A DNA stretch of 33,963 bases from Akkermansia sp. (GTDB lineage: Bacteria; Verrucomicrobiota; Verrucomicrobiia; Verrucomicrobiales; Akkermansiaceae): positions 1 to 33,963 of the forward strand of contig JAKSOV010000012.1 of assembly GCA_024405415.1 (NCBI GenBank). The letters are read 5' to 3'. Of the stretch, positions 6,716 through 32,790 are shown piece by piece. A program made the position numbers and the translations under genes. Each line of letters begins with the position of its first letter. Position 1 is the stretch's first letter. The notes under the pieces were generated by a model. That model did not search any database and had not been told where the DNA came from. It saw only the letters and a program-made list of their open reading frames with translations.

Positions 6716-7234
6716 ATGGAGACATCGAACGACACAACGAAGAAAAAAAACACAAACAAACTTTCCATTAAATTTGTTTGTATCATTTTAGGCGCGAGTA
6801 TCGGACTAAACCTCATAGGCTTCCTCCTGTCAATATATTTCAAACAGCATGAGATTCAAGATTATTTCTCATACACACTCGGATTCCTCTCTCTCGTGTT
6901 TGCGCTGTGGGGTCTTTATATTGCGGGGAGCATCAAAAAAGCCCTAACTTCCAGGAGCATCTTAAGCCCGATTGAAAATTTAAGAATCAAATATTCAGCA
7001 GCATCCGGTAACGGCAGCATCAAATATGTACGAGCAGAAGATATAGACGAAGCTAAGCAAACACTGAACTTCGCCATCAAAGCAGGGAAACTTCTTCCTC
7101 AAGACGTTATCAATGCCATAAACGATGCAATTCTATACTTAGAAGGCAAACAGAACGGAAAATCGAGCGACACGAAACCACTTTATTCCGTCCTGATTAA
7201 CTACCTTGACGCCATCATCAACGCCAGCCATTAA
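6716..7234 (+). CDS. Unknown protein with two membrane segments and a helical C-terminal domain
   Basis: A 172-residue protein that I do not recognise. After a lysine/threonine-rich N-terminus there are two membrane segments, at about residues 18-43 and 50-76, joined by a short charged loop (KQHEIQD). A cytoplasmic-looking helical domain of about 95 residues follows, with a segment reading EDIDEAKQTLNFAIKAGKLL. There is no signal-peptide cleavage pattern, so it is probably an inner-membrane protein with both ends inside. It is AT-rich compared with the antiporter next door, suggesting acquired DNA. It has its own strong promoter and is followed nine bases later by a second small gene, with a terminator after both. 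Position beside an Mrr enzyme hints at, but does not show, a defence role. Confidence 0.7.
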   Translation: METSNDTTKKKNTNKLSIKFVCIILGASIGLNLIGFLLSIYFKQHEIQDYFSYTLGFLSLVFALWGLYIAGSIKKALTSRSILSPIENLRIKYSAASGNGSIKYVRAEDIDEAKQTLNFAIKAGKLLPQDVINAINDAILYLEGKQNGKSSDTKPLYSVLINYLDAIINASH

Positions 7235-7243
7235 CGCATTCCT

Positions 7244-7630
7244 ATGAATCCCAACGAGCTTTTTGTACATAACCTACTGGACAGCACCAAGGAAGGCAAC
7301 ATCAAATGGGAAAACATTTCCCCTGACGCGGACACCCAAATAGCAGGTGCATTTAAAACGATCCAAGGCCTATCCGATGGCTACGTAGCATATCTGCTTA
7401 AACTGAATTCTGATTACCTTTTAATTACATTAAAGGACAACAAATCAGATCGCGCTTTTGCCTCACAAAAGCTGAGAAATCCGGAAATTCTGGAAGAATT
7501 ATACAGATGCGCCCAAACAGCCAATAGCTCAAAAGAAATTCGGAGCGCACTTGCCTTTATTAAAAGCGATGCTCAGCGTTCAACCCCCACGGAAGAAAAT
7601 CAGGGAGATAACAAAGCGACAAAAGCGTAA
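7244..7630 (+). CDS. Unknown small soluble protein, second gene of a pair
   Basis: A 128-residue protein with no signal peptide or membrane segment, unrecognised. The first 85 residues look like a mixed alpha/beta fold (WENISPDADTQIAGAFKTI, then YVAYLLKLNSDYLLITLKDN). The C-terminal 30 residues are polar and probably disordered (rich in T, E, N, K). It starts nine bases after the stop of the membrane-protein gene, so the two are almost certainly co-transcribed and may form a membrane/soluble partner pair. AT-rich like its neighbour. Confidence 0.65.
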   Translation: MNPNELFVHNLLDSTKEGNIKWENISPDADTQIAGAFKTIQGLSDGYVAYLLKLNSDYLLITLKDNKSDRAFASQKLRNPEILEELYRCAQTANSSKEIRSALAFIKSDAQRSTPTEENQGDNKATKA

Positions 7631-9229: not shown

Positions 9230-10008
9230 TTAAGCTTGCGATGAAGAAATGATTATGTTATCTGGAACACCTAAGTTTATTAGTTCTTTTCTTATCCTTT
9301 CGCCTTCTTCATCTATTTCAGTTTTTATTTCCAGTGAATCAATAACAGATGAAATATCCCTAAACGGGATAAGAATGTACGGACACATGACCGTCCTGTT
9401 TCTCCTTTTAACCTTACAACTCACTTTTTCATACTCCACCAATGGAGATTCATCGTCCAAAAACAAGTACCCTCTATACTCTTTTTGATATGAAAATTTT
9501 GAAGGAATTGACAAGATATCCATAATGGGCATAGGCAGCCGCTCCAATACTTCAGACTCCCTAATTTGATTTTTTTCCACCTTTTCAAATAGTGTTTATC
9601 GATATACGTGACTTTCTCGACACCCAAAACATCGCTGCATGTCAACAATTCGCTCAAAGGCGTCATAGGATGTATTAAACTATAGAAAGACCCCAAAAAT
9701 AATCTTATTTTTCCAACGGTTGTTCGGAGCAATATGGAGTTCTTATCACCAAATACTCGCCAATTTTTACCAGATGGTTCCCCTTGAGACCAATATGTAA
9801 AGAAATAATTTTCATCCAAATCAAGCCACTCAGCACCCTCGCAATGGGGCAAAATTGCTCTATGCATCTTCATTTCCCCATTGCGCGGTTTTAATCTCCA
9901 GCGCTTGAGTGAGTTCATCTGCCACCTATTGCTGCTCAGCCTAGCAATAAAATCTTCAGCGGGCATAATCCGAAACAGGCGCTCGGCATCGTCATCAAAT
10001 CCAGACAT
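9230..10008 (-). pseudogene. DUF2971-like gene split by a frameshift in an A7 run
   Basis: Two overlapping minus-strand frames join into one protein of about 259 residues if one A is added to the run of seven (9570-9576, T on the plus strand). The first frame begins at the ATG at 10008 (MSGFDDDAERLFRIMPAEDF) and stays sensible to KHYLKRWKK; the second continues KNQIRESEVLERL and runs to the stop at 9230. The first part has a YFFTYWSQGEPSGKNWRVFG segment followed by SILLRTTVGKIRLFL, and the second has YQKEYRGYLF and a final helix plus strand. This order resembles DUF2971 proteins, which are frequent in mobile and defence regions and have no firm function. The family call is moderate. The break could be decay, an assembly error, or slippage at A AAA AAA. 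AT-rich compared with neighbours. Confidence 0.6.
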
Positions 10009-10361: not shown

Positions 10362-13148
10362 ATGGCAAAGCCTGAGGAAGCAGCTCGCAAGAAAATTGAC
10401 GCGCAGTTGGCGGCGTGCGGGTGGACTGTGACGGCGGATAAGGAGGCGTGGAAGCAGGGCGATGCGGTGGCAATCACGGAATGGGTCTTCCCGAACGGCT
10501 TGATTGCGGATTATTTGCTCTGCTGTCAGGGCAAGGCCATCGGCGTGGTAGAAGCGAAGAAGGAGAACTTCCTGCTCGGCGGGGTGTACCACCAAGCCAA
10601 CGGCTACCTTGACGCATCCGCGGAAGAAACGCGGGTTCCCAAGTGGCGGAATGCCCTGTGCTTCACATATGTCGCCAACGGAAACGTCGTGCTGTTTGCC
10701 GACCGCCGCACGGAGTATTCCCGCTCGCGGGTGGTGTTCAGCTTCCACCGCCCCGATACCTTGGCTCGCCTGATGGCGGAGGGCGAATCCACCCTGCCCG
10801 ACCGACTGCGCACGCAGGCAGGAACGCCCCTGCCCGACAAACTGCACCTGCGTGATTGCCAAACGGAAGCGATTGAGAGCTTAGAAAAATCCCTCGCCGA
10901 CCAACACCGCCGCGCATACATCCACCTCGCCACGGGCGCGGGCAAGACCTACATGGCGTGCACGTTCTGCCACCGCCTGTTGCGGCAATCGAAGGCCACG
11001 CGCATTCTGTTTCTCGTGGACCGCACCAACCTCGGAGACAACGCTCTGAGCGAATTCAGCCATTGGACCTCCCCCACCAGAGGCCACAAGTTCACGGAAG
11101 AATACATCGTCGAGCGTTTGGGCGGCAGCCCGCCCACGGGAGCCAAGGTGGTCATTTCCACCATCCAGCGCGTGTACGCCCTGCTCTCCGGCGTGCCGAT
11201 GGCACCTGAGGACGAAGAAGAATCCGCTTGGGAGCGGGAGCGCACGGATGCGCCCGAAAAACAGGTGCTCTACAACGCCGCCGTGCCGCCCGAGTTCTTC
11301 GATTTCGTCATCGTGGACGAATGCCACCGCTCCATCTACAAAAAGTGGCGCGGCGTGCTGGAGTATTTCGATGCCACGCTCATCGGGCTCACCGCCACGC
11401 CCTCCCCGCAGACACACGCCTTTTTCGATGAAAACCGCGTGGCGACGTATTCCTACGCGGAATCCGTGAAGGACGGCGTGAATGTGCCTTACACCATCTT
11501 CCGCATCAAAACGCGCATTTCCGAGCAGGGCGGCGTCATCCAAGCCGACCCCGACTTCGGCAACTACCGCAAAGACCAGTTCACAGGGCAGCTGGAAGAT
11601 ATCGAGATGGACAAGGACGAGGAGTACCAAAAGACGGAGCTCAACCGCCGTGTGGAGTCTCCGAGCCAAATCCGCCTCATTCTTTCGACCTACCGCGACT
11701 CCATCTACACCAAGCTCTACCCCCAACGCCGCAGCAACGACGAGGAGTACAACACCAACTTTATCCCCAAGACACTCATCTTCGCGCAGACGGATGCGCA
11801 CGCCGAGACCATCTGCAAAATCGCACAGGAAGTCTTCGGGCGCGGCGACCGCTTCTGTCAGAAAATCACCTGCTCCGTCACCGGAACAACCTCCCAAGCC
11901 CTCATCCGCGAGTTCCGCACCGACCCCGCCTTCCGCATTGCCGTCACCGTGGACCTCGTGGCCACAGGAACGGACATTCGCCCGCTGGAGGTTGTGCTCT
12001 TCATGCGCGATGTCCGCAGCAGCCTGTACTACGAACAGATGGTCGGGCGCGGCTGCCGCGTGATTGAGGACAACATGCTGCTCAACGTCACACCGAACGC
12101 GGATTCCAAGGATTTGTTCTATCTGGTGGATGCCGTGGGTGTCACCGAGCACATCAAGGTCACGCCGCAGCCGACGCTCAAAGGCGGACGGCATACCGAC
12201 ATGATGGAGCTCATGCAGCGCGTGGCGGATTGGCGGCGGCGCGAGCCGGATGCCGATGATGTCCGCACGCTCTCCCAACGGCTGACCCGCCTTGTGCACA
12301 AATGCCGCCGCCTGTACTACACCGCCGAGCTGAACGCCATCCGCTTCACCATCGCCGTTCCGCCCGATGATGCAGGAGAAGACCTAATGGTTGCCGAACC
12401 CGTCTTTGAAGATATTGGCTTAGAGGAGATGGCGGCACGGCTCTACGACGCGGCGGAGACAACGCCGCGCGGCGACGACGAGCACAACCTCTTCGACGGC
12501 TTCACACCCGCCATGCAACGGCGCATCTACGAGCTGGTCTGCAAGCACGGCATCCTCATCTCCCACGAGACGGATACGCTGCAGGAAACGCCGGAATTCA
12601 CCCACAGCGTGGCAGAGGAGCGCACCGCCGCCTTTGAAGCCTTTTTGGAGAAGCGCAAGGACACCCTTGCCGCCCTGCGCTTCATCTACCAAGGCACCAT
12701 GCAGCAGGAAACCCTGCTGGCCGAGCAGCTGGAGGAGCTCCTTGATGCCATGCAAGCCGCCAATCCCCACTTCAAGACAAACACCCTGTGGCGGCACTAC
12801 CAAACCCTGCACCCGGAACAATGCCGCGAAGCCTACGGACGCTCCGCCGAGCTGGGCAACCTCATCCGTCTGGTGCGCTACGCCGCGCATCTCACGGAAA
12901 CGCTGGATGACTTCGGCCGCATTGCCCGCCGCAACTACGAGCTGTGGCTCGGGCGCAAAATCAACGCCGGCATCACCTTCACGGACGAGCAGCGCGCGCT
13001 GCTGGACAAGGTGCGAGATGCCGTCATCTACCAATTCGCAGGGGATGTCAAGCGCATGCAGACCGTGGACCCCGCCCTGTACCCGCAGTGCTTCAAAGCT
13101 AAGCTGCACACCTATCTTTCTGAACTCACCTCAGCCCTTATCGCCTAA
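10362..13148 (+). CDS. hsdR: Type I restriction enzyme, R (endonuclease/translocase) subunit
   Basis: A 928-residue HsdR subunit, which cuts DNA after ATP-driven translocation in complex with HsdM and HsdS. Domains in order: an N-terminal PD-(D/E)xK nuclease with Asp50 and Glu64-Ala-Lys66 (GVVEAKKENF); an SF2 helicase core with Walker A LATGAGKT at about 189-196, the DECH box (VIVDECHRSIY) at about 317, and TATPSP; helicase lobe 2 with TLIFAQTDAHAETI, VATGTDI and a final motif VI-like YEQMVGRGCR; then an EcoEI-type helical C-terminal domain. All catalytic residues are present, so it should be active. It starts the operon; the hsdM ATG follows its stop by two bases. No Shine-Dalgarno sequence is evident before the ATG. 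Confidence 0.95.
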   Translation: MAKPEEAARKKIDAQLAACGWTVTADKEAWKQGDAVAITEWVFPNGLIADYLLCCQGKAIGVVEAKKENFLLGGVYHQANGYLDASAEETRVPKWRNALCFTYVANGNVVLFADRRTEYSRSRVVFSFHRPDTLARLMAEGESTLPDRLRTQAGTPLPDKLHLRDCQTEAIESLEKSLADQHRRAYIHLATGAGKTYMACTFCHRLLRQSKATRILFLVDRTNLGDNALSEFSHWTSPTRGHKFTEEYIVERLGGSPPTGAKVVISTIQRVYALLSGVPMAPEDEEESAWERERTDAPEKQVLYNAAVPPEFFDFVIVDECHRSIYKKWRGVLEYFDATLIGLTATPSPQTHAFFDENRVATYSYAESVKDGVNVPYTIFRIKTRISEQGGVIQADPDFGNYRKDQFTGQLEDIEMDKDEEYQKTELNRRVESPSQIRLILSTYRDSIYTKLYPQRRSNDEEYNTNFIPKTLIFAQTDAHAETICKIAQEVFGRGDRFCQKITCSVTGTTSQALIREFRTDPAFRIAVTVDLVATGTDIRPLEVVLFMRDVRSSLYYEQMVGRGCRVIEDNMLLNVTPNADSKDLFYLVDAVGVTEHIKVTPQPTLKGGRHTDMMELMQRVADWRRREPDADDVRTLSQRLTRLVHKCRRLYYTAELNAIRFTIAVPPDDAGEDLMVAEPVFEDIGLEEMAARLYDAAETTPRGDDEHNLFDGFTPAMQRRIYELVCKHGILISHETDTLQETPEFTHSVAEERTAAFEAFLEKRKDTLAALRFIYQGTMQQETLLAEQLEELLDAMQAANPHFKTNTLWRHYQTLHPEQCREAYGRSAELGNLIRLVRYAAHLTETLDDFGRIARRNYELWLGRKINAGITFTDEQRALLDKVRDAVIYQFAGDVKRMQTVDPALYPQCFKAKLHTYLSELTSALIA

Positions 13149-13150
13149 AT

Positions 13151-14590
13151 ATGTCTATCGTCGATAAAGTGTGGAAGATGGCAACGGTTCTTTGCAAAGC
13201 CGGCGTCTCCTTCACGGACTACGTCTCCCAGCTCACCTACCTGCTCTTCCTGAAAATGGATGACGAGCAAGCACAGATATACGGAAAACAATCCGCCCTT
13301 GTGCCTGAGGCCTGCCGATGGGCCACCCTTTCCGCGTTGCAAGGTGAAGATTTGGCAGCGGCGTACACCGCTGCGCTGAAAGTCCTCTCCGAACAGCCCA
13401 ACATCCTTGGTGTCATTTATCGGGATGCTCAGAACAAAATCACCAAGCCCGCGCACCTGCGCCGCGTCATTGAGATGATTGATGCGGAAACATGGCTCGC
13501 GTTGGATGTCGATGTCAAGGGTTCTATCTACGAAGGCATCTTGGAGAAAAACGCTTCCGCCGAAAAGGGCGCGGGGCAATACTTCACCTCCCGCGCCCTC
13601 ATCCGTGCCATCGTGGATGTCATGCGCCCCCGCGCCGGGCTCAACATCCACGACCCCTTCTGCGGCACGGGCGGCTTCCTGCTGGGCGCCTACGAGTACA
13701 TCCGCAAGCAGAACCCCGATTACAGAGAGCTGGAACGTCTGCAAAAGCGTGGTCTCTCCGGCAACGATATCACCCCCATGGTCGTGAGTCTCGCATCCAT
13801 GAACATGTACCTGCACGGCATCGGGGCGCAGCGAGGTGCCAATCTGCCCATTCTCTGCCGCGACACCCTGTCCGAGCCCGAAGCACGCAGTTTCGACATG
13901 GTGCTGGCCAACCCGCCTTTCGGCATCGGCGGCGGTGTGCAGGATGAATCCGGTTCTTTCACGCTCGCGGATGACCGCTTCTTCGCCATCACCTCCAACA
14001 TGCAGCTCAACGCCGTGCAGCACATCATGGCGATTCTGAACTCGACAGGCCGCGCCGCCGTTGTGGTGCCGGACAACGTGCTCTCGGGCGAAGACACCGC
14101 CGGTGCTGCCATCCGCCGCAAGCTGTTGGAGCAGTTCAACCTCCACACCATCCTGCGCCTCCCCACGGGCATTTTCTACGCACAGGGCGTGCAGGCGAAC
14201 GTCATCTTCTTCGACAAATGCCCGCTGGACGGCAAGTCTCACCACACGGAGAAAGTGTGGGTCTACGACTACCGCACCAACATCAAACACACGCTGGTGC
14301 AGAAGCCGATGAAGCGTGAGCACCTCGATGAATTCGTCACCTGTTACCACGCGGATGACATCACGCACCGCAAAGAAACCTGCAGCGAGAGGAACCCCGA
14401 TGGTCGCTGGCGTTGTTTCAGCTATGCGGACATCATCAAGCGCCCGAACACCAATCTCGACCTCCGCTGGATTAAACCGCAGGAGGACACCATCGAGGGA
14501 ACCATGGAAGAGCTGGTCGCCATGCTGGAGGAAGAAATCACCAAGCAGCAAACCGCCCTCGCCGCCCTGAAAAAGCAGTTGAGCCTCTGA
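13151..14590 (+). CDS. hsdM: Type I restriction-modification system, N6-adenine methyltransferase subunit
   Basis: A 479-residue HsdM. Residues 1-130 are the helical HsdM_N domain (VWKMATVLCKAGVSFTDYVSQL). The methyltransferase core follows: GQYFTSRALIRAIVDVM, the SAM-binding motif I DPFCGTGGFLLGAYEY near residue 166, and the catalytic motif IV NPPFG near residue 253 (ANPPFGIGGG). Motif I reads DPFCGTGGF where DPACGTGGF is more common, a conservative difference. It transfers methyl groups to adenine within the site chosen by HsdS and forms the M2S core of the restriction complex. It starts two bases after the hsdR stop and ends 12 bp before hsdS, so translation is probably coupled. The last 30 residues are a coiled-coil-like helix (EELVAMLEEEITKQQTALAAL). 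Confidence 0.95.
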   Translation: MSIVDKVWKMATVLCKAGVSFTDYVSQLTYLLFLKMDDEQAQIYGKQSALVPEACRWATLSALQGEDLAAAYTAALKVLSEQPNILGVIYRDAQNKITKPAHLRRVIEMIDAETWLALDVDVKGSIYEGILEKNASAEKGAGQYFTSRALIRAIVDVMRPRAGLNIHDPFCGTGGFLLGAYEYIRKQNPDYRELERLQKRGLSGNDITPMVVSLASMNMYLHGIGAQRGANLPILCRDTLSEPEARSFDMVLANPPFGIGGGVQDESGSFTLADDRFFAITSNMQLNAVQHIMAILNSTGRAAVVVPDNVLSGEDTAGAAIRRKLLEQFNLHTILRLPTGIFYAQGVQANVIFFDKCPLDGKSHHTEKVWVYDYRTNIKHTLVQKPMKREHLDEFVTCYHADDITHRKETCSERNPDGRWRCFSYADIIKRPNTNLDLRWIKPQEDTIEGTMEELVAMLEEEITKQQTALAALKKQLSL

Positions 14591-14602
14591 CCTGACACGC
14601 CC

Positions 14603-16063
14603 ATGCTCCTCTCCTCCATCCGTCAGCAAATCCTCGACCGCGCCATCCGCGGGCAGCTCGTTCCCCAGCTCCCCGAAGAAGGCACCGCTGAGGAACTCTA
14701 TCAGCAGATTCAGGCGGAAAAGAAAGCCCTTATCGCCAACGGCTCCATTAAGAAAGAGAAACCGCTAGAGCCTATTCAAGAGGAGGATATTCCTTTCGAG
14801 ATTCCCGCAACGTGGAAGTGGGTACAATTACAAGATATTTGCATGTCCTTGGGTGCCGGACTCACTCCGTCAAAATCCAATAAGGCCTATCACACAAATG
14901 GAACCATCCCATGGATTCTGACAGGAGATTTAAACGACCAAGAAATTTTAGAAGCTCCGAATAAAATTACACAGCTCGCTCTGGATAACACTTCTTTGCA
15001 AATCAAACCATCAGGAAGCCTCTTGATTGCCATGTACGGAGCAACCATCGGCAAGCTCGGCATTCTGACATTTCCGGCCTGCATGAATCAGGCATGTTGC
15101 TGCATTGAACCTCATCAAAATGTCAATCGTCTATTCCTTTTTTATTACCTCCGAGCCATCAGAAGCTCATTAAAAACTTCTGGTGAAGGCAGTGCTCAAC
15201 CCAATATCTCCAAAGAAAAACTTAGGATTCTACACATCCCCCTTCCCCCTCAGGAAGAGCAAACACGCATTGTCCGAAAGATAGAAGCTCTTTTCAGCGC
15301 CCTAGATACAGTTGAATCATCCAAAAAGCGTATCTCTGCTATCCAAACCGAGCTGACGAAGCGTATTCTCGAGCAAGCCATTCAGGGCAAGCTCGTTCCC
15401 CAGCTTCCCGAGGAGGGCACCGCCGAAGAGCTTTATCAGCAGATTCAAGCCGAAAAGCAGCGTCTCATCGCTGCCGGCACCATCAAAAAAGAAAAGCCCC
15501 TCCCCCCCATCGAGGAAAAAGACCACCCCTTCGACATCCCCGAAACATGGAAGTGGGTACGGCTGGGGGATTGCGGTGCATTCACTCGCGGCTCAGGCAT
15601 CAAAAAGAACGAGGTTGTAGCCGAGGGCAAGCCTTGCGTGCGATACGGACAGTTATACACCACCTATAAAACACGCTTCTCGCAAGCGGTATCGCACGTT
15701 CCGCAAGAGCTATTTGATAAGTGCAAGCAAGCCAGCAAGGGTGATATTCTGATGGCCTTAACGGGCGAAAACAAAGTAGATATCGCCATGGCCGTCCTCT
15801 ACGAAGGTGAGGAAGCCCTGGCCATCGGTGGTGATATGACAAAATTCTCCCCCGTCCGCATCGACCCGCTCTATCTCGTCTACACGTTAAACTCTCCCTA
15901 CGGCATCAGCTGCAAGACCGAGCGCTCCACAGGAGACATCATCGTCCACACCTCAAACGACAAGCTCTCCACCATCCCCATCCCCCTGCCCCCGCTCGCC
16001 GAACAAAAGCGCATTGTCGCCAAGATTGAGGAGATGCTAACCCTTTGTAAAACATTGCAATAA
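14603..16063 (+). CDS. hsdS: Type I restriction-modification system, specificity subunit
   Basis: A 486-residue HsdS with two target-recognition domains in the classic layout. A conserved region at the N-terminus (ILDRAIRGQLVPQLPEEGTA) leads into TRD1 (about 72-225), then a central conserved helix (PPQEEQTRIVRKIEALFSAL) leads into a second copy of the same block (ILEQAIQGKLVPQLPEEGTA), TRD2 (about 315-460) and a final helix (PPLAEQKRIVAKIEEML). The two blocks at about 14627-14825 and 15361-15572 are recognisably repeated at the DNA level. TRD1 is clearly AT-richer than the blocks around it, suggesting it came by recombination. HsdS decides the bipartite DNA site; the site cannot be predicted here. 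Confidence 0.93.
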   Translation: MLLSSIRQQILDRAIRGQLVPQLPEEGTAEELYQQIQAEKKALIANGSIKKEKPLEPIQEEDIPFEIPATWKWVQLQDICMSLGAGLTPSKSNKAYHTNGTIPWILTGDLNDQEILEAPNKITQLALDNTSLQIKPSGSLLIAMYGATIGKLGILTFPACMNQACCCIEPHQNVNRLFLFYYLRAIRSSLKTSGEGSAQPNISKEKLRILHIPLPPQEEQTRIVRKIEALFSALDTVESSKKRISAIQTELTKRILEQAIQGKLVPQLPEEGTAEELYQQIQAEKQRLIAAGTIKKEKPLPPIEEKDHPFDIPETWKWVRLGDCGAFTRGSGIKKNEVVAEGKPCVRYGQLYTTYKTRFSQAVSHVPQELFDKCKQASKGDILMALTGENKVDIAMAVLYEGEEALAIGGDMTKFSPVRIDPLYLVYTLNSPYGISCKTERSTGDIIVHTSNDKLSTIPIPLPPLAEQKRIVAKIEEMLTLCKTLQ

Positions 16064-16086: not shown

Positions 16087-16899
16087 ATGCTCAATTATAA
16101 CGATGCACAGATAGAAGCTATATGTCGAGCCTTAGCTGAAACGACCTCTGGACCTAAAATGGAAACATATATTAGGTCTCATTCCGTTCTCGGATACACC
16201 TATGTCAAGAATTCCAAATGGAAAGTCTTTATGGCGTATTTTGCAGCAATCAAGCAAGAGTACCCTTACTCAAACAGGATTGAGGAGTGTATTGAGCACT
16301 TTATGTCTCCTGCACTTTTTATTGGTAAAGACGCAGACTATAAGGCACATCGCCATGATTTAAATACCGCCCTGTCGTTCATCGGCAAAGAAATCAACGA
16401 ACGCGGCAAATTACGTGACATCGATAAAGCAGAAACCTTATCAGAAGCCGAGAATAGAGCAAAGTCTCTTCTCAAAAAAGTTGAAGAGCGGAATATGCAT
16501 CCTTTTATCAAAGGAGTCTGCCGAGCAGAATTACTACGAAACGATTTCTATGATGTCGTCTTTGAAGCCAGCAAAGGCGTGTTTGAACGTATTCGCGAGC
16601 TCTCCGGGTACAATGAGTATGACGGAGAGAACCTGATTGCAAAATCCTGTGTGGCAGATGCTCCTTGCTTCATCATTAACAAGCACCTCACGGAAAGCGA
16701 AAAAGCAGAGTACAAAGGCTTCGGCAACCTTCTGCGCGGCATCCACGGACACTTCCGCAACCCTGCTGCCCATACACTCAAGCAAAATTGGGGCAAAACC
16801 GAGATTGAGGTATTGGAGATTCTCGGCATCATATCGTACATTCATAGACGCCTAGACAACGCTCATCGAACCTGTTGTGCGAAAGGGATTGATGCATAA
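16087..16899 (+). CDS. TIGR02391 (Ymh) family protein with HEPN-type motif, linked to hsdS
   Basis: A 270-residue protein of the TIGR02391/Hypoth_Ymh family. The first 150 residues are helical and charged (AQIEAICRALAETTSGPKME). The C-terminal 120 residues carry the family core: FYDVVFEASKGVFERIRELSG, a hydrophobic strand, then GNLLRGIHGHFRNPAAHTLK. The FRNPAAH sequence fits the R-x4-H signature of HEPN RNases, in which Arg and His form the active site. HEPN toxins, including anticodon nucleases such as PrrC and RloC, often sit beside type I restriction systems and act when restriction fails. This gene lies 23 bp after hsdS on the same strand, so it is probably the last operon gene. The family call is good; the RNase role is inferred from the motif. 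Confidence 0.75.
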   Translation: MLNYNDAQIEAICRALAETTSGPKMETYIRSHSVLGYTYVKNSKWKVFMAYFAAIKQEYPYSNRIEECIEHFMSPALFIGKDADYKAHRHDLNTALSFIGKEINERGKLRDIDKAETLSEAENRAKSLLKKVEERNMHPFIKGVCRAELLRNDFYDVVFEASKGVFERIRELSGYNEYDGENLIAKSCVADAPCFIINKHLTESEKAEYKGFGNLLRGIHGHFRNPAAHTLKQNWGKTEIEVLEILGIISYIHRRLDNAHRTCCAKGIDA

Positions 16900-17105
16900 A
16901 GAAACAGGAAGGGGCGACTGCGGATTCTCTAGCGTTCTTGGGGACATACTTCGTAAAAGTTAACAATTTAGGATTGAGAGATACCATTTTTTAACTTCTC
17001 CAAGTCGCTCAATGATGAATCAAGAAACATTGATTCTTCACGTTTTTCGTCACTCTGAAATCTCATTCTCTTTCAGGGCATGAATAAACAGTCACAAAAA
17101 ATCTC
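16900..17105. other. Intergenic region with a weak hairpin
   Basis: No gene is seen. GAATCAA (17017-17023) and TTGATTC (17030-17036) form a 7-bp stem with a six-base loop, followed by CACGTTTTTC; it may be a weak terminator for the hsd operon. The rest is AT-rich and featureless up to the promoter at 17106. Confidence 0.4.
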
Positions 17106-17135
17106 TTGCAATGTTCCACGGAACAATGCTACAAT
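17106..17135 (+). promoter_or_regulatory. Promoter of the LexA-box gene pair
   Basis: TTGCAA (17106-17111) and TACAAT (17130-17135) with an 18-bp spacer. Transcription should begin about 17142, three bases before the ATG at 17145, so the mRNA would be essentially leaderless. The spacer is almost filled by a LexA box. Confidence 0.65.
17112..17125. promoter_or_regulatory. Predicted LexA box (TGTTC-N4-GAACA)
   Basis: TGTTCCACGGAACA is an exact match to the 14-bp palindrome TGTTC-N4-GAACA described as the LexA-binding motif of Verrucomicrobia. It sits exactly between the -35 and -10 boxes, where a bound repressor would block RNA polymerase. The sequence match is direct; LexA control is inferred and depends on the organism being a verrucomicrobium. 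No other exact copy was noticed in the intergenic regions I inspected. Confidence 0.65.
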
Positions 17136-17144
17136 CAGCCAACC

Positions 17145-17453
17145 ATGAAACTGCACTTGCCATCATTTCTGCACAAAATGCTCAGTGCCGTACTGTCGGT
17201 GCTGACGTGTGGGGTAATTATGCCAACACACGCGGCAGATGAACAGCGCACCTCAGCACGCATCCGCACCCTCTCAACTGGTATAAATTGGGTTCTTTTC
17301 CGCCAAGCCGCAGAAGCTACTATGAATAGTGAAGAAGGTTCAGAAATTTTACAGCAAGCTGAAATCTCTCCCGTATATAGTGCCGCTGTTTCTCGCCTAG
17401 AAGAACAAATTAGCGGAATCCAAGAAAAGGCAGACGCTCTGCGCCATGCTTAA
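17145..17453 (+). CDS. Small exported protein, predicted SOS-inducible
   Basis: A 102-residue protein with a signal peptide of about 31 residues (MKLHLPSFLHKMLSAV, hydrophobic core, likely cleavage at THA-AD). The mature 70-residue part is polar and mostly helical, ending in a coiled-coil-like stretch (AVSRLEEQISGIQEKADALR). I do not recognise a family. The N-terminus resembles that of the giant autotransporter in this window (MKTHLPTGLRKAL), which points to a lineage-specific export signal. The ATG at 17145 is favoured over an upstream TTG because the TTG lies inside the -35 box. A LexA box covers the promoter, so expression is probably raised by DNA damage. The next gene starts 36 bp downstream in the same direction. 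Confidence 0.65.
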   Translation: MKLHLPSFLHKMLSAVLSVLTCGVIMPTHAADEQRTSARIRTLSTGINWVLFRQAAEATMNSEEGSEILQQAEISPVYSAAVSRLEEQISGIQEKADALRHA

Positions 17454-17489
17454 TCTCCGTTTTACTCTCTCAGTCACAACTTGCAAGCT

Positions 17490-18035
17490 ATGAACGAAGA
17501 AAATCCCGACACCCTTGCCCCCATTCCGCACATGAGCCCTGGGGTCGCCGTTGGCGGCTCCTCCTCTACAAAAGATCCGGAGAGCGGGCAAATTACTAAA
17601 CGCAATTACATGGCGCAGTGTGCTATTCCCCATGATGTGCTGATGGTTCCTGCCATTGACAGTATGCAGGACAAAGAGGCTCAAGCAAAGTTTATTGAGC
17701 TATTTAAGGCCAATCAAGCTCATGCTTTCGAAGAAGATTCAAAAGCCCATGAGCGGCAAGAAATTCGCAACGACAAGAAAGCCGAGGTAGAAAACCATGG
17801 TCGAGTACAAAATCGATGGTTTGGTTACATATTTATCATATTAGGTTTCGCCATAAGTTTGGGTCTTCGGTGCTATAGCCTTCTTAGCACATTAGACATT
17901 GGAGTCGCGCTATTCTTCGTTACAATTCTTGGCATAGCAATCATGAATGGAAGACTTTTATCCATTTCTGCCTCAAAGAAAAGTGCCTCAAATGATGCAC
18001 ATGTAGCGGTCAGCGATACGACTGAAAGCCATTAA
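17490..18035 (+). CDS. Two-helix membrane protein, DUF2335-like, partner of the LexA-box gene
   Basis: A 181-residue protein. The N-terminal 110 residues are soluble and charged, including KFIELFKANQAHAFEEDSKA and a run HERQEIRNDKKAEVENHGR. Two membrane helices lie at about residues 110-133 and 138-160 (WFGYIFIILGFAISLGL; VALFFVTILGIAIMNGR), then a short polar tail. A helical H/E/K/R-rich stretch leading into a C-terminal hairpin of two membrane helices is the layout of DUF2335 membrane proteins; I offer that as a resemblance, not an assignment. It most likely shares the LexA-controlled promoter of the exported protein upstream. The ATG at 17490 was chosen over a TTG nine bases earlier. A strong hairpin follows the stop. 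Confidence 0.65.
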   Translation: MNEENPDTLAPIPHMSPGVAVGGSSSTKDPESGQITKRNYMAQCAIPHDVLMVPAIDSMQDKEAQAKFIELFKANQAHAFEEDSKAHERQEIRNDKKAEVENHGRVQNRWFGYIFIILGFAISLGLRCYSLLSTLDIGVALFFVTILGIAIMNGRLLSISASKKSASNDAHVAVSDTTESH

Positions 18036-18050
18036 AGATAACTTTTATCA

Positions 18051-18090
18051 TACAAAAGGAGGCAGTGCACAAGTGCTGCCTCCTTTTGTA
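18051..18090 (+). terminator. Terminator-like hairpin after the LexA-box pair
   Basis: TACAAAAGGAGGCAG (18051-18065) pairs perfectly with CTGCCTCCTTTTGTA (18076-18090); CAC/GTG near the loop extends the stem with a small bulge. The T-rich half of the stem runs into TAAAATTG. It starts 15 bp after the stop codon. Confidence 0.75.
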
Positions 18091-18145
18091 TAAAATTGTT
18101 TACAATCGGGTTTTATTTACAATTGCCCAGCGAAGAAGCCTCATT

Positions 18146-18190
18146 TTTAAATTTGCGTCAATTATCCCCGAAACTTGAGGCAAATTTAAA
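18146..18190. repeat. Long inverted repeat in the intergenic region
   Basis: TTTAAATTTGCGTCAA (18146-18161) and TTGAGGCAAATTTAAA (18175-18190) pair over 16 positions with one mismatch, around a 13-base loop. Its function is unknown; it sits between two transcription units that converge here. Confidence 0.6.
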
Positions 18191-18220
18191 CCAGATCACA
18201 AAGCAACTGTGCGCTATTCA

Positions 18221-18255
18221 CTTTCAGTTATCCAAAAAATTTGGATAACTGAAAG
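18221..18255. repeat. Perfect 15-bp inverted repeat beside the gyrA terminator
   Basis: CTTTCAGTTATCCAA (18221-18235) and TTGGATAACTGAAAG (18241-18255) form a perfect stem with a five-base AAAAT loop. The right arm shares its last base with the gyrA terminator stem, so on the minus strand the two hairpins follow each other directly. Confidence 0.7.
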
Positions 18256-18282
18256 GCGGCAGCGCGTGAGCGCTGCCGCCTT
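18253..18282 (-). terminator. gyrA terminator
   Basis: GGCGGCAGCGC (18255-18265) and GCGCTGCCGCC (18270-18280) form an 11-bp stem, extendable by two A-T pairs, with a GTGA loop. On the minus strand it comes 24 bp after the gyrA stop and is followed by TTTC. Confidence 0.75.
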
Positions 18283-18306
18283 GTGTATGAGTGGCTGTGA
18301 GGAGGA

Positions 18307-23928: not shown

Positions 23929-26900
23929 TCAGAACTTCACGTTCACGCCGACGTTGCCGCCGACGGAGGTGCGGTCTGCGCTGAACTCGAAGTTGCCGCC
24001 GCCGATGAGGGAGGTGGAGGCCGTAACGGGCAGCACCACGGAGGCACCGATTTCGCCGTAGATGGGGGCGCGCTCGGCGCTCTTGGTCGTCCAGGCGCGG
24101 CCGGCACCGGCGAAGCGGTTGGTGGCCTCAGGCTGGTTCTCGCTCAGCTCGGCGTGCACCGCGGCGGAGGCGCTCAGCGCGGCGCCGGAGGCGAAGCTGT
24201 ACGTGTACGCAGCACCGAGGGCCACATCCACCTGCACCGGCTCGTCATACTCGGTGATGACGGAGGCATCGCCCTGGCCCTTCTCGGTCAGCGTATCCAT
24301 CTGGTGGATAGCCACGTCGATGGCGGCGAAGGGCGTCAGCGTGCTGGCGGAGCTCAGCTGCACATCGTAGCTCAGCTCATAGCCGAGGTTCCAGGAGATG
24401 GCGTCCATGCTGCCCGTGCTGTTGCCCGTGTAGGTGTGGGCAGCGGCAGAGACGTAGGTGTGACGCTTGGTGTCGATGTCGTGCAGAGCCACACCAGCGG
24501 AGAAGCGGTGGGTGAAGGCACCCGCCTTGACCGTGGTGTAGAGGTCGGCGAACATCGTGTCGATGTCGGCGCGCACGCTGTCCTGGTGACCCTTAGCGCT
24601 CTCGTAGCCGAGGGAGATACCCACGGAGGTGTTGCAGCTCAGGCTGTAGTCCGTGCCGAGGATGGCACCCTGATGCTGGCGGGTGTAGTCGCTCGTGTAC
24701 TCATCAGCGCCGATGAAGTCGTGACCGCCCGTGTAGGCCGCCCACATATTGCCGCCCGTCGCCTTGCCCTTGCAGGTCGGCTCGCCCATGTGGCTGCGCA
24801 GCGTGCTCAGGTGGTTGCGGGAGGAATCCATCATCATGTTGGTCACCACCAGATTGCCCGCGGCGCTCAGGGACTGCAGAGCGTCCAGCGTAGCGCCCTC
24901 GCTGCGGGTGTTGTCCAGCGCGTCGAGCACGTGGGCGAGGTCGGAGGGCATCTCAGCCAGCACACCCGGGTTGTGGGGCACCTCAGCGGAGAGCTCCTTG
25001 AGCGGGGTGTTCACCGCCGTCTGGTTGGGCTTGGTCTTCTCCGTGCCGCGGTAGTTGGTGGAAATCACCAAATCCACATGGTCACCCGCGTTGACAAGGC
25101 TCATGTTCTTGCCCTGCAGCGCGCGCTGACCGCCATCGAGGTCGTACTTCACTTCCTCGCTCATGACTTCGTTCACGGCACCGTCCGCCAGCTTGATGAT
25201 GGTGTGTGTCACATCACCCTCGATGGATTCCAGAGACTCCTGAGCGGTCACATGCACCGTGTGAGCACCCATAGCGATACCCTTCGTCACGGTGATGAGG
25301 TCCGCGGAATCAGCGCTCGCATCGATGTTGAGCGTGGAGCCGTTCCACATTGCGATTGTGCTCGCGGTGGTCTCGGTGTCAATCGTGCCGGCGTTGATGG
25401 TGACGACCGAGCCATCATCCGAGCCATCATCATAGGCGGTCACATTGCCGAGGGAGGCACCCGTGGAGGTCACATTGAGGTCAGCGCCACCATACAGCCC
25501 AATCTGAGCTTCCGCGCCCACACCCGTGTTAGCGATGGTGAGCGTATGCTCGTGCATACTGATGTAGCCGTTGAAGGCCGAGTCATCGAAGTCAGCCGCG
25601 CGGTTCAGGTCATCCCAACTCGCAATGATCATACCCTTGCCGGAGAGCTTGCCCTGCAGCGCGTCTGCCGAGTTCTCACCCAGCCTCAGCTTGGCGCCTT
25701 CAGCCAGCTCGATGGTATCCGCCGTCACGGTCGCGCCGTCCTGCAGCATGTTCGCGTACGACGCGAAGGTCACCGTGCCCTTGGCCGCCGTGATAGCGGT
25801 GTTCTCATCGGAGACCTGCACATTCTGGTTCAGCGTGATATCGCCCTTGGTGGAGGTCACGGTCGTGCCGCCGGTCAGCGCCAACATGTCCATGCCGTTG
25901 TTCACCGCGGCATCACCGATGGTGATGTCCTCCTTGGCGGTAATCGCGGATTCCTTCAGCGTTGCGACGGAATCATTGGTCACCGTCACGCCACCCTTCG
26001 TGCTCTTCACCGTCATCTGTTCGTTGAGATTGCTGAGCGTGTCGATGGTGATGTCGCCGTTGGCAGCGGTCATCGTGGTGCCCTCGGTGTTGTTAATCTT
26101 GTTGACATGGATGTCGCCCTCGCCCTTGGTGGTGAGCGTGGTGCTGTCACCGCTGATGGTGCCGTTCACGGTGAGGTCGCCTTCGGGAGCCTTGATGGTC
26201 ACGCCTTCGGACTTCACATTACCGTCAATCGTCAGGCCCTTGCCTTCCGTACCCGTAGAGGTGATGGTGCCGCCGACGCCGTCGATGTCAGCCGTGATGG
26301 TGTCTTCCACCTTCACCTTGCTCTCCGCCTCTTCGCCGTCGTTAATCACCAGCGTCTCAGCCTCGATGGTCTGAGCCTTCAGCGTAGCCCCGTTCACGGT
26401 CACAGTCTCGGGAGCGGTCACCGCACCCTCGGCAATCAGCTTGCCGCCGTTCACGGTAATCGTCTCGGCAGCGGCCACATCACCCGTCACCTTCACGGTG
26501 GAGTCCGTGGTCGCAATCGTGCTCTCGGAGGTCACATCGCCCGTCACCGTCAGCGTGGAGTCCGTCACGGTAATCTTGGCGACAGGCATCTCATCAAGCA
26601 TCTGCTCCGCCAACGTGGCACCGAACTGGTCTTCGATGGTGCCTGCGATAGCCTCGCGCAGGGAGGAAGCATCAGCATTCAGAGAGCCCGTGGTCAGCGT
26701 GCTGCCGGCGATGGTGACATCACCCACGACATCCACATCGCCCACAGTGCCGGAGGTCACGCCCTGGACATCCACACCCATGAGCATCGACAAATTGGCA
26801 ATCTCGCCGGCGACCGCTGCCTCCTTGGCTTCGGGGGAGAGGAGGGCGTTCGCATCAATCTCCTTGATGGTGTCCTGCGTAGCGGCAATGATGTCCTTGT

Positions 26901-29742
26901 TGGCAACGGTGATGCTCGCGGCATTCAGAGAGCTGGTGCCCTCCTCATTGCCCGTCAGCAACAGACCGGCATCAGCCTTCACATCGCCCGTGGCATCCAG
27001 CGAGCCGCCTAGCACAACGACGCGACCGTGCTCAACGGTCATGTCGCCGGAGGCGAGGTCGGCTTCATAGGCGTTGATGCTGCCGTCAGCAGCGGTCACC
27101 GTGCCCGCAGCCAGCAGAGAGGCGCCATTGTCGCCGCCATGCACCTCAATCCCGGTCTCGGAGTAGACATCGCCGGTCACCATCACATCGGAGCCCACCA
27201 CGCGGATGCTCGACTGAGCGGGCTGGAGGTTCTCCAGCTTCTCCACGGCTTCGGCGCCGCCCAGCTTGGCATTCGCCTTAATGGTATTGATGATGTCCTC
27301 GCGCACCTCGGTGGAATCCGCCGTCAGAGAGTCGGCCTGCATCGTGCTGCCGAAAATCTTGATGCTGCCGTTGGTAGTCACATCGCCCACGGCGCTGCCC
27401 TCAGCCATATCGATGATGGTCACGCCCGCGAGGTCCAGAGACTCCGCCTGAAGCGCAGTAATCGCGGCATCCTTGGTGAAGGTGTCGCCGCCGACAATCG
27501 TGCCGATCTTGTCAGAAATCTCAGCGATGGTGTCCTTCGTGTCAGCGATGGCATCGTTGTTGACAACGGAGATGGCGCCCGCGGTCAGCGTGCTGGTGCC
27601 TTCCTCATTGCCGCTCACGGTCAGGCCGGCATCAGCCGTCACATCACCCGTGGCGTTGAGAGAGCCGCCCTCCACGGTGATAGCACCGTGCTCGGCGGTC
27701 ATGTTGGCGGAGGTAAGGTCGGCGTCCTCGGCGGTGATATCGCCGTCATTCGCCGTCACATCGCCCGTGGCTGCCAGATAGCCGTTCTTCACGGCAATCG
27801 TGGTGTCGGAGGTCACCTTGCCCTTCACATTCACCTTGGAGTCCTCCACGGTGATGCTCACGGTGGGCAGGGCGTCCGCCAGCGCTTCAACGCCTGCGGT
27901 GCCGAACTTATTCTCAATGATGGTGGTCAGAGCCTCGCGCACATCGGTGGCATCCGCCGTCAGGGAGTCCGCCGTCAGCTTGCTGCCCTTGATGACGATA
28001 TCGCCGTTGGTGGTAACATCGCCCACGATGCTCTTGCGCACGTTCTCGATGCTCACATCGCCGAGCGACTGCTGCAGCTCATCTTTGCGCGCGGCGAGCG
28101 CGGCCAGTGCTTCTTCGTCGTCGGCAAACACATCACCGACCGCGGCCTTCGCCTCAATGATGGCGGCCACGGCATCCGCAGTGGCGGTCACGTTCTCCAC
28201 GGTGATATCACCCGTGACGATGGTGTTGCGGTTGTCCTGCATCACGCCGTCCACCTCAACCTTGGGCGCGCCCTCGATGATAACGCCGCAATCAGCGTTT
28301 ACATTAGCAGCAGTCAGGTCGGCTTTATGTACCTCGAGAGTGCCTCCGGCTGTCACATCGCCACCGGCTTTGAGGAAGCCCTTCACCACCTTGGTGTCAT
28401 CGGGCAAGGTCACTTCGCCCTCAACCAGAATGCTATCAGCCGCCGTCACCTCGCCCGCCACCGTCACATCGGAGCCGACCAGCACAATGTTAGAAGTAGG
28501 CAGCTTCACCTCATCGGCGACCGCCTCGCTGATTTCATCGCTGATCTTGTTGTAAATCGCCTCGGCGACCGTATCGTTCGCCACCAGAGATTCGGCTTTC
28601 AGCGTGCTCTCCGTGACGATGATCGAACCGGCCGAATCCACATGACCCACGGTGGCCTCGCTCACATCCTCAAGCTCAACACCAAGGATGCGGTCAGCCA
28701 TCATCGCGCTTGCACCGTTAAGCATCGACACCTGCGTGTCATGGCCATGACCGCTGGCGTCTTCGATAATCTTTCCGGCTTGCTTGAGAAGCCACTCGTT
28801 GGTGACGGTCACATCACCGGCTTTCAGCGTGCCTTCCGACACAGCAAGACCCGAGTTCGTCAGCACATTGCCGCCGATGGTTGTCTCGGCTTCATTCAAA
28901 TAAACCGCGCCCACCGTAGCGGTCAGGTCACCGCCCACAATCAAATCGGCTTTGTTGACACCCACAACCAAGGCCTGAACGTTGCCGTTCGCACCCTTGC
29001 CGCTCGTCACCTTGAGGTATACATCGTGAACGTTGTCCGTGCCGTCAATCACGAGCGCGCCGCTCTTAATGTCCTCTAAGCCGCCGCCGATATCTTCCGT
29101 CTTGCCGCCGATGGTGAGATTGCCGTTCTTGATAGTCACTTGAGAATGGTTAGTGATATACATATCGCCGTTCTCAATCGTCAGGTGGCCATCCTTCTGC
29201 GTCAGCTCGGAGCGGTCGTTCACCACCAGGTCGGCACGCAAGTCAATATCACCATTCGTCACGGACACTTTACTGTGGTCATCAATCCCGAGCACACCGT
29301 TAGCAGGGTAGCTACCATGATAGCCGGTCGAAAGGCCGCCGTCCTGCACAATCACCGTGCCGTGATCACTCACCAGCACGGAGCTGCCGGAGATGAGGGA
29401 ACCATGCTCCACGTCAATCTTACTATTGGTGGTCACGCCGATAACGCCGGGAGTACTGCCGTCGTTGTCAGAGCGCACAGTAGAAGCAGAGTCCAGCGTA
29501 GCGCCCTCCGACACCAACAGGCCGTTGACCGTCACGCCGCCGGAGACCGTAATCTCGGCACCGTTCCTGATACTGACCTGCCTGTCATAAGACGGCGTTC
29601 CGGGCGTAGTAGTATCAATGATGCCGAGCTCGGCATCTTCTGTATATTCGGTGGCAGCCTGCGCGTTGTAGGCCACCGCGGACACCGCGAAAATCGCGGC
29701 AATCAGGGCTTTGCGAAGCCCGGTCGGGAGGTGTGTTTTCAT
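23929..29742 (-). CDS. Giant autotransporter (type Va secretion) with internal repeats
   Basis: A 1937-residue surface protein. Residues 1-29 are a signal peptide (MKTHLPTGLRKALIAAIFAV, cleavage near AQA). The passenger, about 30-1640, is a right-handed beta-helix-type sequence of short V/I/T/G/D-rich turns. Its middle part contains about four related blocks of roughly 210 residues, each marked by VGDV or VGHV, then a strand segment, then a helical insert such as TDVREALTTIIENKFG. The last 275 residues (from about GGNMWAAYTGGHDFIG) form the 12-strand translocator barrel, ending NVGVNVKF with the C-terminal Phe expected for BAM recognition. The passenger is therefore displayed or released outside the cell; adhesion is a usual role, but no ligand or protease motif is visible. 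It has its own promoter and terminator. Confidence 0.9.
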   Translation of the reverse strand: MKTHLPTGLRKALIAAIFAVSAVAYNAQAATEYTEDAELGIIDTTTPGTPSYDRQVSIRNGAEITVSGGVTVNGLLVSEGATLDSASTVRSDNDGSTPGVIGVTTNSKIDVEHGSLISGSSVLVSDHGTVIVQDGGLSTGYHGSYPANGVLGIDDHSKVSVTNGDIDLRADLVVNDRSELTQKDGHLTIENGDMYITNHSQVTIKNGNLTIGGKTEDIGGGLEDIKSGALVIDGTDNVHDVYLKVTSGKGANGNVQALVVGVNKADLIVGGDLTATVGAVYLNEAETTIGGNVLTNSGLAVSEGTLKAGDVTVTNEWLLKQAGKIIEDASGHGHDTQVSMLNGASAMMADRILGVELEDVSEATVGHVDSAGSIIVTESTLKAESLVANDTVAEAIYNKISDEISEAVADEVKLPTSNIVLVGSDVTVAGEVTAADSILVEGEVTLPDDTKVVKGFLKAGGDVTAGGTLEVHKADLTAANVNADCGVIIEGAPKVEVDGVMQDNRNTIVTGDITVENVTATADAVAAIIEAKAAVGDVFADDEEALAALAARKDELQQSLGDVSIENVRKSIVGDVTTNGDIVIKGSKLTADSLTADATDVREALTTIIENKFGTAGVEALADALPTVSITVEDSKVNVKGKVTSDTTIAVKNGYLAATGDVTANDGDITAEDADLTSANMTAEHGAITVEGGSLNATGDVTADAGLTVSGNEEGTSTLTAGAISVVNNDAIADTKDTIAEISDKIGTIVGGDTFTKDAAITALQAESLDLAGVTIIDMAEGSAVGDVTTNGSIKIFGSTMQADSLTADSTEVREDIINTIKANAKLGGAEAVEKLENLQPAQSSIRVVGSDVMVTGDVYSETGIEVHGGDNGASLLAAGTVTAADGSINAYEADLASGDMTVEHGRVVVLGGSLDATGDVKADAGLLLTGNEEGTSSLNAASITVANKDIIAATQDTIKEIDANALLSPEAKEAAVAGEIANLSMLMGVDVQGVTSGTVGDVDVVGDVTIAGSTLTTGSLNADASSLREAIAGTIEDQFGATLAEQMLDEMPVAKITVTDSTLTVTGDVTSESTIATTDSTVKVTGDVAAAETITVNGGKLIAEGAVTAPETVTVNGATLKAQTIEAETLVINDGEEAESKVKVEDTITADIDGVGGTITSTGTEGKGLTIDGNVKSEGVTIKAPEGDLTVNGTISGDSTTLTTKGEGDIHVNKINNTEGTTMTAANGDITIDTLSNLNEQMTVKSTKGGVTVTNDSVATLKESAITAKEDITIGDAAVNNGMDMLALTGGTTVTSTKGDITLNQNVQVSDENTAITAAKGTVTFASYANMLQDGATVTADTIELAEGAKLRLGENSADALQGKLSGKGMIIASWDDLNRAADFDDSAFNGYISMHEHTLTIANTGVGAEAQIGLYGGADLNVTSTGASLGNVTAYDDGSDDGSVVTINAGTIDTETTASTIAMWNGSTLNIDASADSADLITVTKGIAMGAHTVHVTAQESLESIEGDVTHTIIKLADGAVNEVMSEEVKYDLDGGQRALQGKNMSLVNAGDHVDLVISTNYRGTEKTKPNQTAVNTPLKELSAEVPHNPGVLAEMPSDLAHVLDALDNTRSEGATLDALQSLSAAGNLVVTNMMMDSSRNHLSTLRSHMGEPTCKGKATGGNMWAAYTGGHDFIGADEYTSDYTRQHQGAILGTDYSLSCNTSVGISLGYESAKGHQDSVRADIDTMFADLYTTVKAGAFTHRFSAGVALHDIDTKRHTYVSAAAHTYTGNSTGSMDAISWNLGYELSYDVQLSSASTLTPFAAIDVAIHQMDTLTEKGQGDASVITEYDEPVQVDVALGAAYTYSFASGAALSASAAVHAELSENQPEATNRFAGAGRAWTTKSAERAPIYGEIGASVVLPVTASTSLIGGGNFEFSADRTSVGGNVGVNVKF
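26700..28700 (-). repeat. About four tandem intragenic repeats in the autotransporter passenger
   Basis: The CCCAC-containing codons for VGDV/VGHV recur near 28643, 28021, 27385 and 26741, spacings of about 622, 636 and 644 bp. Adjacent units, especially the last two, are visibly similar at the DNA level; for example, the segments near 27594 and 26934 share long near-identical stretches. Boundaries are approximate. Confidence 0.7.
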
Positions 29743-32623: not shown

Positions 32624-32690
32624 ATTGATTACTTTCGGATTAGAAAAGAGAGGGTCGCGCGCACGGACGCACGCGAGAGCTATCAGCTGA

Positions 32691-32719
32691 AGCATACCTG
32701 TTCTGAGCCTCTGAGTCAA
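32691..32719 (-). promoter_or_regulatory. Promoter of the second autotransporter gene
   Basis: Minus strand TTGACT (32714-32719) and TATGCT (32691-32696) with a 17-bp spacer. The leader would be about 60 bases and includes an alternating CG stretch near 32657-32680. Confidence 0.6.
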
Positions 32720-32790
32720 GACCAAAGAGCGCATTCTCCCGCAAGGATTTCACAAATAACATTTTTTATTTAAGAATACCGAAATTATGC

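Follow-up and report, generated by a model that had tools for sequence, protein, structure and literature searches.

The occurrence of a perfect LexA-type palindrome in the spacer of a promoter-like sequence, ahead of two genes for predicted membrane-associated or exported proteins, raises the question of whether this gene pair of Akkermansia sp. belongs to the SOS regulon and what the two proteins might otherwise represent. The pair lies in the 33,963-nucleotide stretch of contig JAKSOV010000012.1 (assembly GCA_024405415.1) that is here termed the window (Table 1). The promoter-like site is composed of TTGCAA (17106-17111) and TACAAT (17130-17135), and its 18-nt spacer holds TGTTCCACGGAACA, which confirms the exact TGTTC-N4-GAACA box recognized in an earlier, sequence-only reading of the locus. 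The TTGCAA-18-TACAAT match itself is at the chance level for its region, since the 1.6 kb scanned should contain 2.6 promoter-like sites of such quality at random. The first ORF starts with the ATG at 17145 and the second, which encodes a C-terminal hydrophobic hairpin, with the ATG at 17490, the intergenic gap between them being 36 nt. There is no evident Shine-Dalgarno sequence at either start codon, and the first message would be nearly leaderless provided that the promoter call is right. No Rfam RNA was detected in 16900-18300. The first product has the length described earlier, and its N-terminal hydrophobic segment may be either the signal peptide proposed then or a membrane anchor. Searches of Pfam, NCBIfam and PADLOC returned no match for either protein, and we agree with the earlier view that neither has a known function.

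Table 1. Features of the gene pair and its surroundings in the window
Feature	Position	Strand	Remarks
Type I restriction-modification genes hsdR, hsdM, hsdS	10362..16063	+	Context
HEPN/Hypoth_Ymh protein	16087..16899	+	PADLOC PD-Lambda-3_B, E 1e-54; after hsdS
Promoter-like site TTGCAA-18-TACAAT, TG before -10	17106..17135	+	9/12 consensus matches
Palindrome TGTTCCACGGAACA	17112..17125	.	Equals the verrucomicrobial LexA consensus; genome without LexA
ORF, 102 aa, hydrophobic N-terminal segment	17145..17453	+	Signal peptide or membrane anchor
ORF, 181 aa, long helix and two-helix membrane hairpin	17490..18035	+	Distant DUF2335 relative
Terminator-like hairpin, 19 pairs, closing the pair	18050..18091	+	Strong

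The motif TGTTC-N4-GAACA, which we take to be the LexA-binding motif of verrucomicrobia, agrees with the boxes that our analysis located at sister-genus lexA genes. These genes served as a positive control: of the 10 examined, 7 have the box, at 0-1 mismatch, 18-19 nt ahead of the start of the LexA domain. Across the 260 genomes of the family, nearly all other genera yield LexA matches at about 1e-16 to 1e-28, whereas none of the 76 same-genus genomes yields a strong match (best 8e-6). In the genome of the window (1.98 Mb, 95% complete), a search with the LexA DNA-binding family (PF01726) recovered only a sub-threshold match, a MarR-type protein, and the sole S24 peptidase is a UmuD-like protein of 135 aa devoid of a DNA-binding domain (no HTH). 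Because this genome is 95% complete, the absence of LexA at the level of the genus is the stronger point. The S24 proteins of the genus are either UmuD-like, a version retained in many of its LexA-less species, or CI-like proteins of 269-307 aa, and one complete genome has none. On the whole, the entire genus (L005, L006 and G000-G075) appears to have lost LexA, with recA being kept in the genome of the window. The motif is therefore right for the family, its reader is missing in this genus, and the pair is accordingly most probably not under LexA control in Akkermansia sp. A "LexA repressor" has been listed in some A. muciniphila strains (PMC8262928), and these proteins may be the CI-like S24 proteins of the genus.

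The exact box occurs once in the 34-kb window against 0.02 expected, which is nominally rare, and three times in the whole genome against about 1-2 expected from composition, with the other two copies located inside coding regions. It is absent upstream of recA and at the umuD-like gene of this genome, as well as from the homologous pairs (L008 and L024-L029), relatives which are few and distant, and no homologous pair with a box was found in any genus. The proposal that recA, lexA and the pair would share the box fails on a boxless recA and a lexA that was not found, and the box is likewise not conserved at homologous loci, both being outcomes that the earlier reading had named as counting against it; the genome-wide count is near chance, and LexA control of the pair is not supported.

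Instead, the palindrome may serve a different regulator as its operator, be a remnant of LexA control in a donor that had LexA, or have arisen by chance. The first two of these, with either an island-borne or phage-type repressor acting at the site or the pair being constitutive here, form a tentative explanation. In their favor are the extension of the palindrome to arms of 6+6 (TGTTCC-N2-GGAACA) and its place exactly in the promoter spacer, the presence of both LexA and the box in other genera of the family, and the position of the pair in a low-GC block. Set against this, no boxed homologous pair was found in any genus, the surroundings of the pair showed no regulator gene, and the box may have arisen by chance.

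The low-GC block (43-47% versus about 60%) also holds an Mrr-type enzyme, the type I restriction genes and the HEPN protein matching PD-Lambda-3_B, so that the placement of the pair directly after a restriction/HEPN operon, as first described, is upheld. The B protein seems to be attached to the type I restriction operon, given that the neighbors scanned include no partner of the PD-Lambda-3 system. In six same-genus genomes, neither the pair nor the Mrr, restriction and HEPN genes are found within 11-15 kb beyond gyrA. Two ORFs with no assigned function occur near the Mrr gene in this block, at 6716-7630 (+) and 9421-10008 (-), the latter weakly resembling PADLOC PDC-S31 (E 6e-4). Elsewhere in the window, two large autotransporter-type proteins are encoded near gyrB (23929-29742 and 30215-32734, - strand).

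The 181-aa protein has no match to PF10097 at E<=1 and thus falls short of the Pfam gathering threshold. A single same-genus homologue was recovered (in G067, E 6.6e-5), which is directly preceded by a 92-aa ORF and lacks the box. When a profile of 36 DUF2335 proteins was used as the query, this homologue ranked first (E 3.5e-5) and the 181-aa protein next, with a weak E-value of 0.33, yet 0 of 1000 shuffles scored as well. Profile-profile comparisons with hhalign linked the window group to the variants of the genus (E 1e-4, a modest probability of 57%) and these variants in turn to canonical DUF2335 (2.5e-5, likewise modest at 75%). AlphaFold2 models of the 181-aa protein and of a canonical DUF2335 protein both predict a long helix running into the membrane, a short turn and a returning helix. 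Judging from these comparisons, the 181-aa protein is a distant relative of DUF2335 that can be linked to it via the same-genus intermediate, and the profile ranking together with the predicted hairpin layout bears out its earlier description as DUF2335-like. Among viral contigs, plasmids and phages it found no direct match, and structure searches returned nothing significant and no solved relative. Another candidate homologue, L009 (E 0.006), was rejected as a chance match lying antisense to recN. In one further genome of the genus (G073, L127:454-3985), a more typical DUF2335-like gene is followed in tandem by the 92-aa ORF that also precedes the G067 homologue and by a truncated gene of the window type, and this locus adjoins a MunI-type restriction-modification system.

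Searches that used only DUF2335 led to loci in Verrucomicrobiota, Bacteroidota, Acidobacteriota, Planctomycetes and Pasteurella as well as in phages and plasmids. Across 36 DUF2335 loci there is an upstream partner gene of 65-160 aa (usually 65-110 aa), which often overlaps the start of the DUF2335 gene. The partners share the consensus TDFLxxxxSFxxGAGSxxNxxGxxxxYNxSxxxxEADxxAIxSDWxxVGxDIxxA. With leave-one-out profiles, the true partner outscored every other local ORF at all 36 loci, mostly with strong E-values, and a Bacteroidota partner directly retrieved the partner from a Leptospira phage (E 3e-5). None of the partners tested belongs to a Pfam family. The upstream partner of DUF2335 (L060-L100) is an uncatalogued family of small proteins, which could become a new Pfam entry.

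Several temperate phages carry the pair as typical cargo, in the slot between the lysis genes and the integrase. It lies between lysin and integrase in the Staphylococcus phages E72 and IME-SA4, after the lysin in the Streptococcus Javan433 and Lactococcus D6890 phages, and next to the integrase in Pseudomonas MD8, Arthrobacter Gusanita and one E. coli prophage; PHROGs files DUF2335 (PHROG 3996) as a moron. The chromosomal pairs have mixed neighbors, comprising housekeeping genes, prophage genes and a few restriction genes, and hence show no clear enrichment in defense islands, so that genomic context alone is no proof of defense. No PADLOC model matches the DUF2335 modules or the window pair. 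Our literature searches found no paper describing the module and neither a function nor an experiment for DUF2335; the entry "DUF2335 (phospholipase)" in a Vibrio T6SS table is probably a slip for DUF2235.

The 102-aa protein agrees with the small partner in position, size and the hydrophobic N-terminal segment. Its sequence disagrees with the partner profile (the SDWxxVGxDI family), against which it ranks 13 of 220 ORFs with a score no better than that of shuffles, and it is therefore a positional counterpart rather than a recognized homologue. BLASTP against the partner in the homologous pair L008 gave no alignment, the 260 family genomes contain no relatives, and a PHROG search returned only weak matches (E 0.06 or worse).

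Taken together, we favor, at a probability of roughly one half, the reading that the pair is a horizontally acquired two-gene membrane cargo module not controlled by LexA, and a strongly diverged relative of the combination of a small anchored protein with a DUF2335 membrane protein found in temperate phages, prophages, plasmids and bacterial chromosomes. Two other interpretations of the proteins appear unlikely. The pair could be a toxin-antitoxin or abortive-infection membrane system whose small member would keep a pore-forming two-helix protein in check, and the two-gene order with start and stop codons often overlapping in the relatives, the membrane hairpin and the restriction neighbors are consistent with this; the small partner, however, comes first and is itself hydrophobic, and the modules are without a PADLOC match. 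Equally improbable is a chance resemblance to DUF2335, whereby the two genes would be unrelated lineage-specific orphans. This would fit the failure of the 181-aa protein to reach PF10097 and the lack of relatives of the 102-aa protein both in the family genomes and by profile, but it is at odds with the position of the former immediately after its own homologue in the DUF2335 ranking, unequaled by shuffles, and with the small ORF immediately upstream of that homologue as well. Finally, an SOS-controlled pair, with LexA repressing the promoter through the box until DNA damage releases it, is highly improbable despite the exact box within a promoter-like spacer, its use by sister-genus lexA genes and the LexA reported for some A. 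muciniphila strains, and the pair was rejected as a member of the SOS regulon given that the genus has no strong LexA match, recA is boxless and the box is neither conserved nor more frequent in the genome than near chance.

Under the favored reading of a cargo module, the two helices of the 181-aa protein would form a hairpin in the inner membrane with the long helix in the cytoplasm, and the 102-aa protein would be anchored or exported next to it. The two might physically interact and together change the membrane or its proteins, thereby blocking either the phage DNA that enters the cell or a superinfecting phage. This suggestion of a block to superinfection is prompted by the prophage cargo position, the membrane layout and the restriction neighbors of the window pair. 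A role in the conflict between phage and host is possible, the argument for it coming from the occurrence of the module as phage cargo and not from the box, and the damage-triggered arrest once proposed for the pair finds no support. A wider proposal, which we regard as speculative, is that the small partner and DUF2335 constitute a superinfection-exclusion or other anti-phage device that spans multiple phyla and occupies the lysogenic-conversion slot of temperate phages, of which the window pair would be a very diverged branch in LexA-less verrucomicrobia. DUF2335 is a Pfam family without a function, and its conserved pairing and phage-cargo location, the latter extending from Firmicutes to Leptospira, turn it into a testable phage-conflict system.

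Comparison with known systems places the pair as follows. With the verrucomicrobial LexA regulon it shares an exact box in the promoter spacer, but it differs in that its genome lacks LexA and that neither recA nor the homologous pairs carry the box. Even a perfect LexA box can thus be a misleading guide in a lineage that has lost LexA, a point to bear in mind when a regulon is carried over from one verrucomicrobial genus to another. Prophage superinfection-exclusion proteins, which block superinfecting phages, are generally small membrane proteins encoded in a cargo slot near the integrase and resemble the pair in these respects; they have no known sequence relation to it, and exclusion by DUF2335 pairs is a conjecture. 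The third comparison is with DUF2335 itself (PF10097/PHROG 3996, "moron, membrane protein"). The window protein differs from it in retaining only fragments of the core SGPLPxPxxLxxYNEIIPNGAERIMxMAExQ, in scoring below the Pfam threshold, in its longer helix and in the 36-nt gap that separates it from the upstream gene, but both have a cytoplasmic helix followed by a two-helix membrane hairpin, a similar length, a small upstream ORF and a setting in mobile elements.
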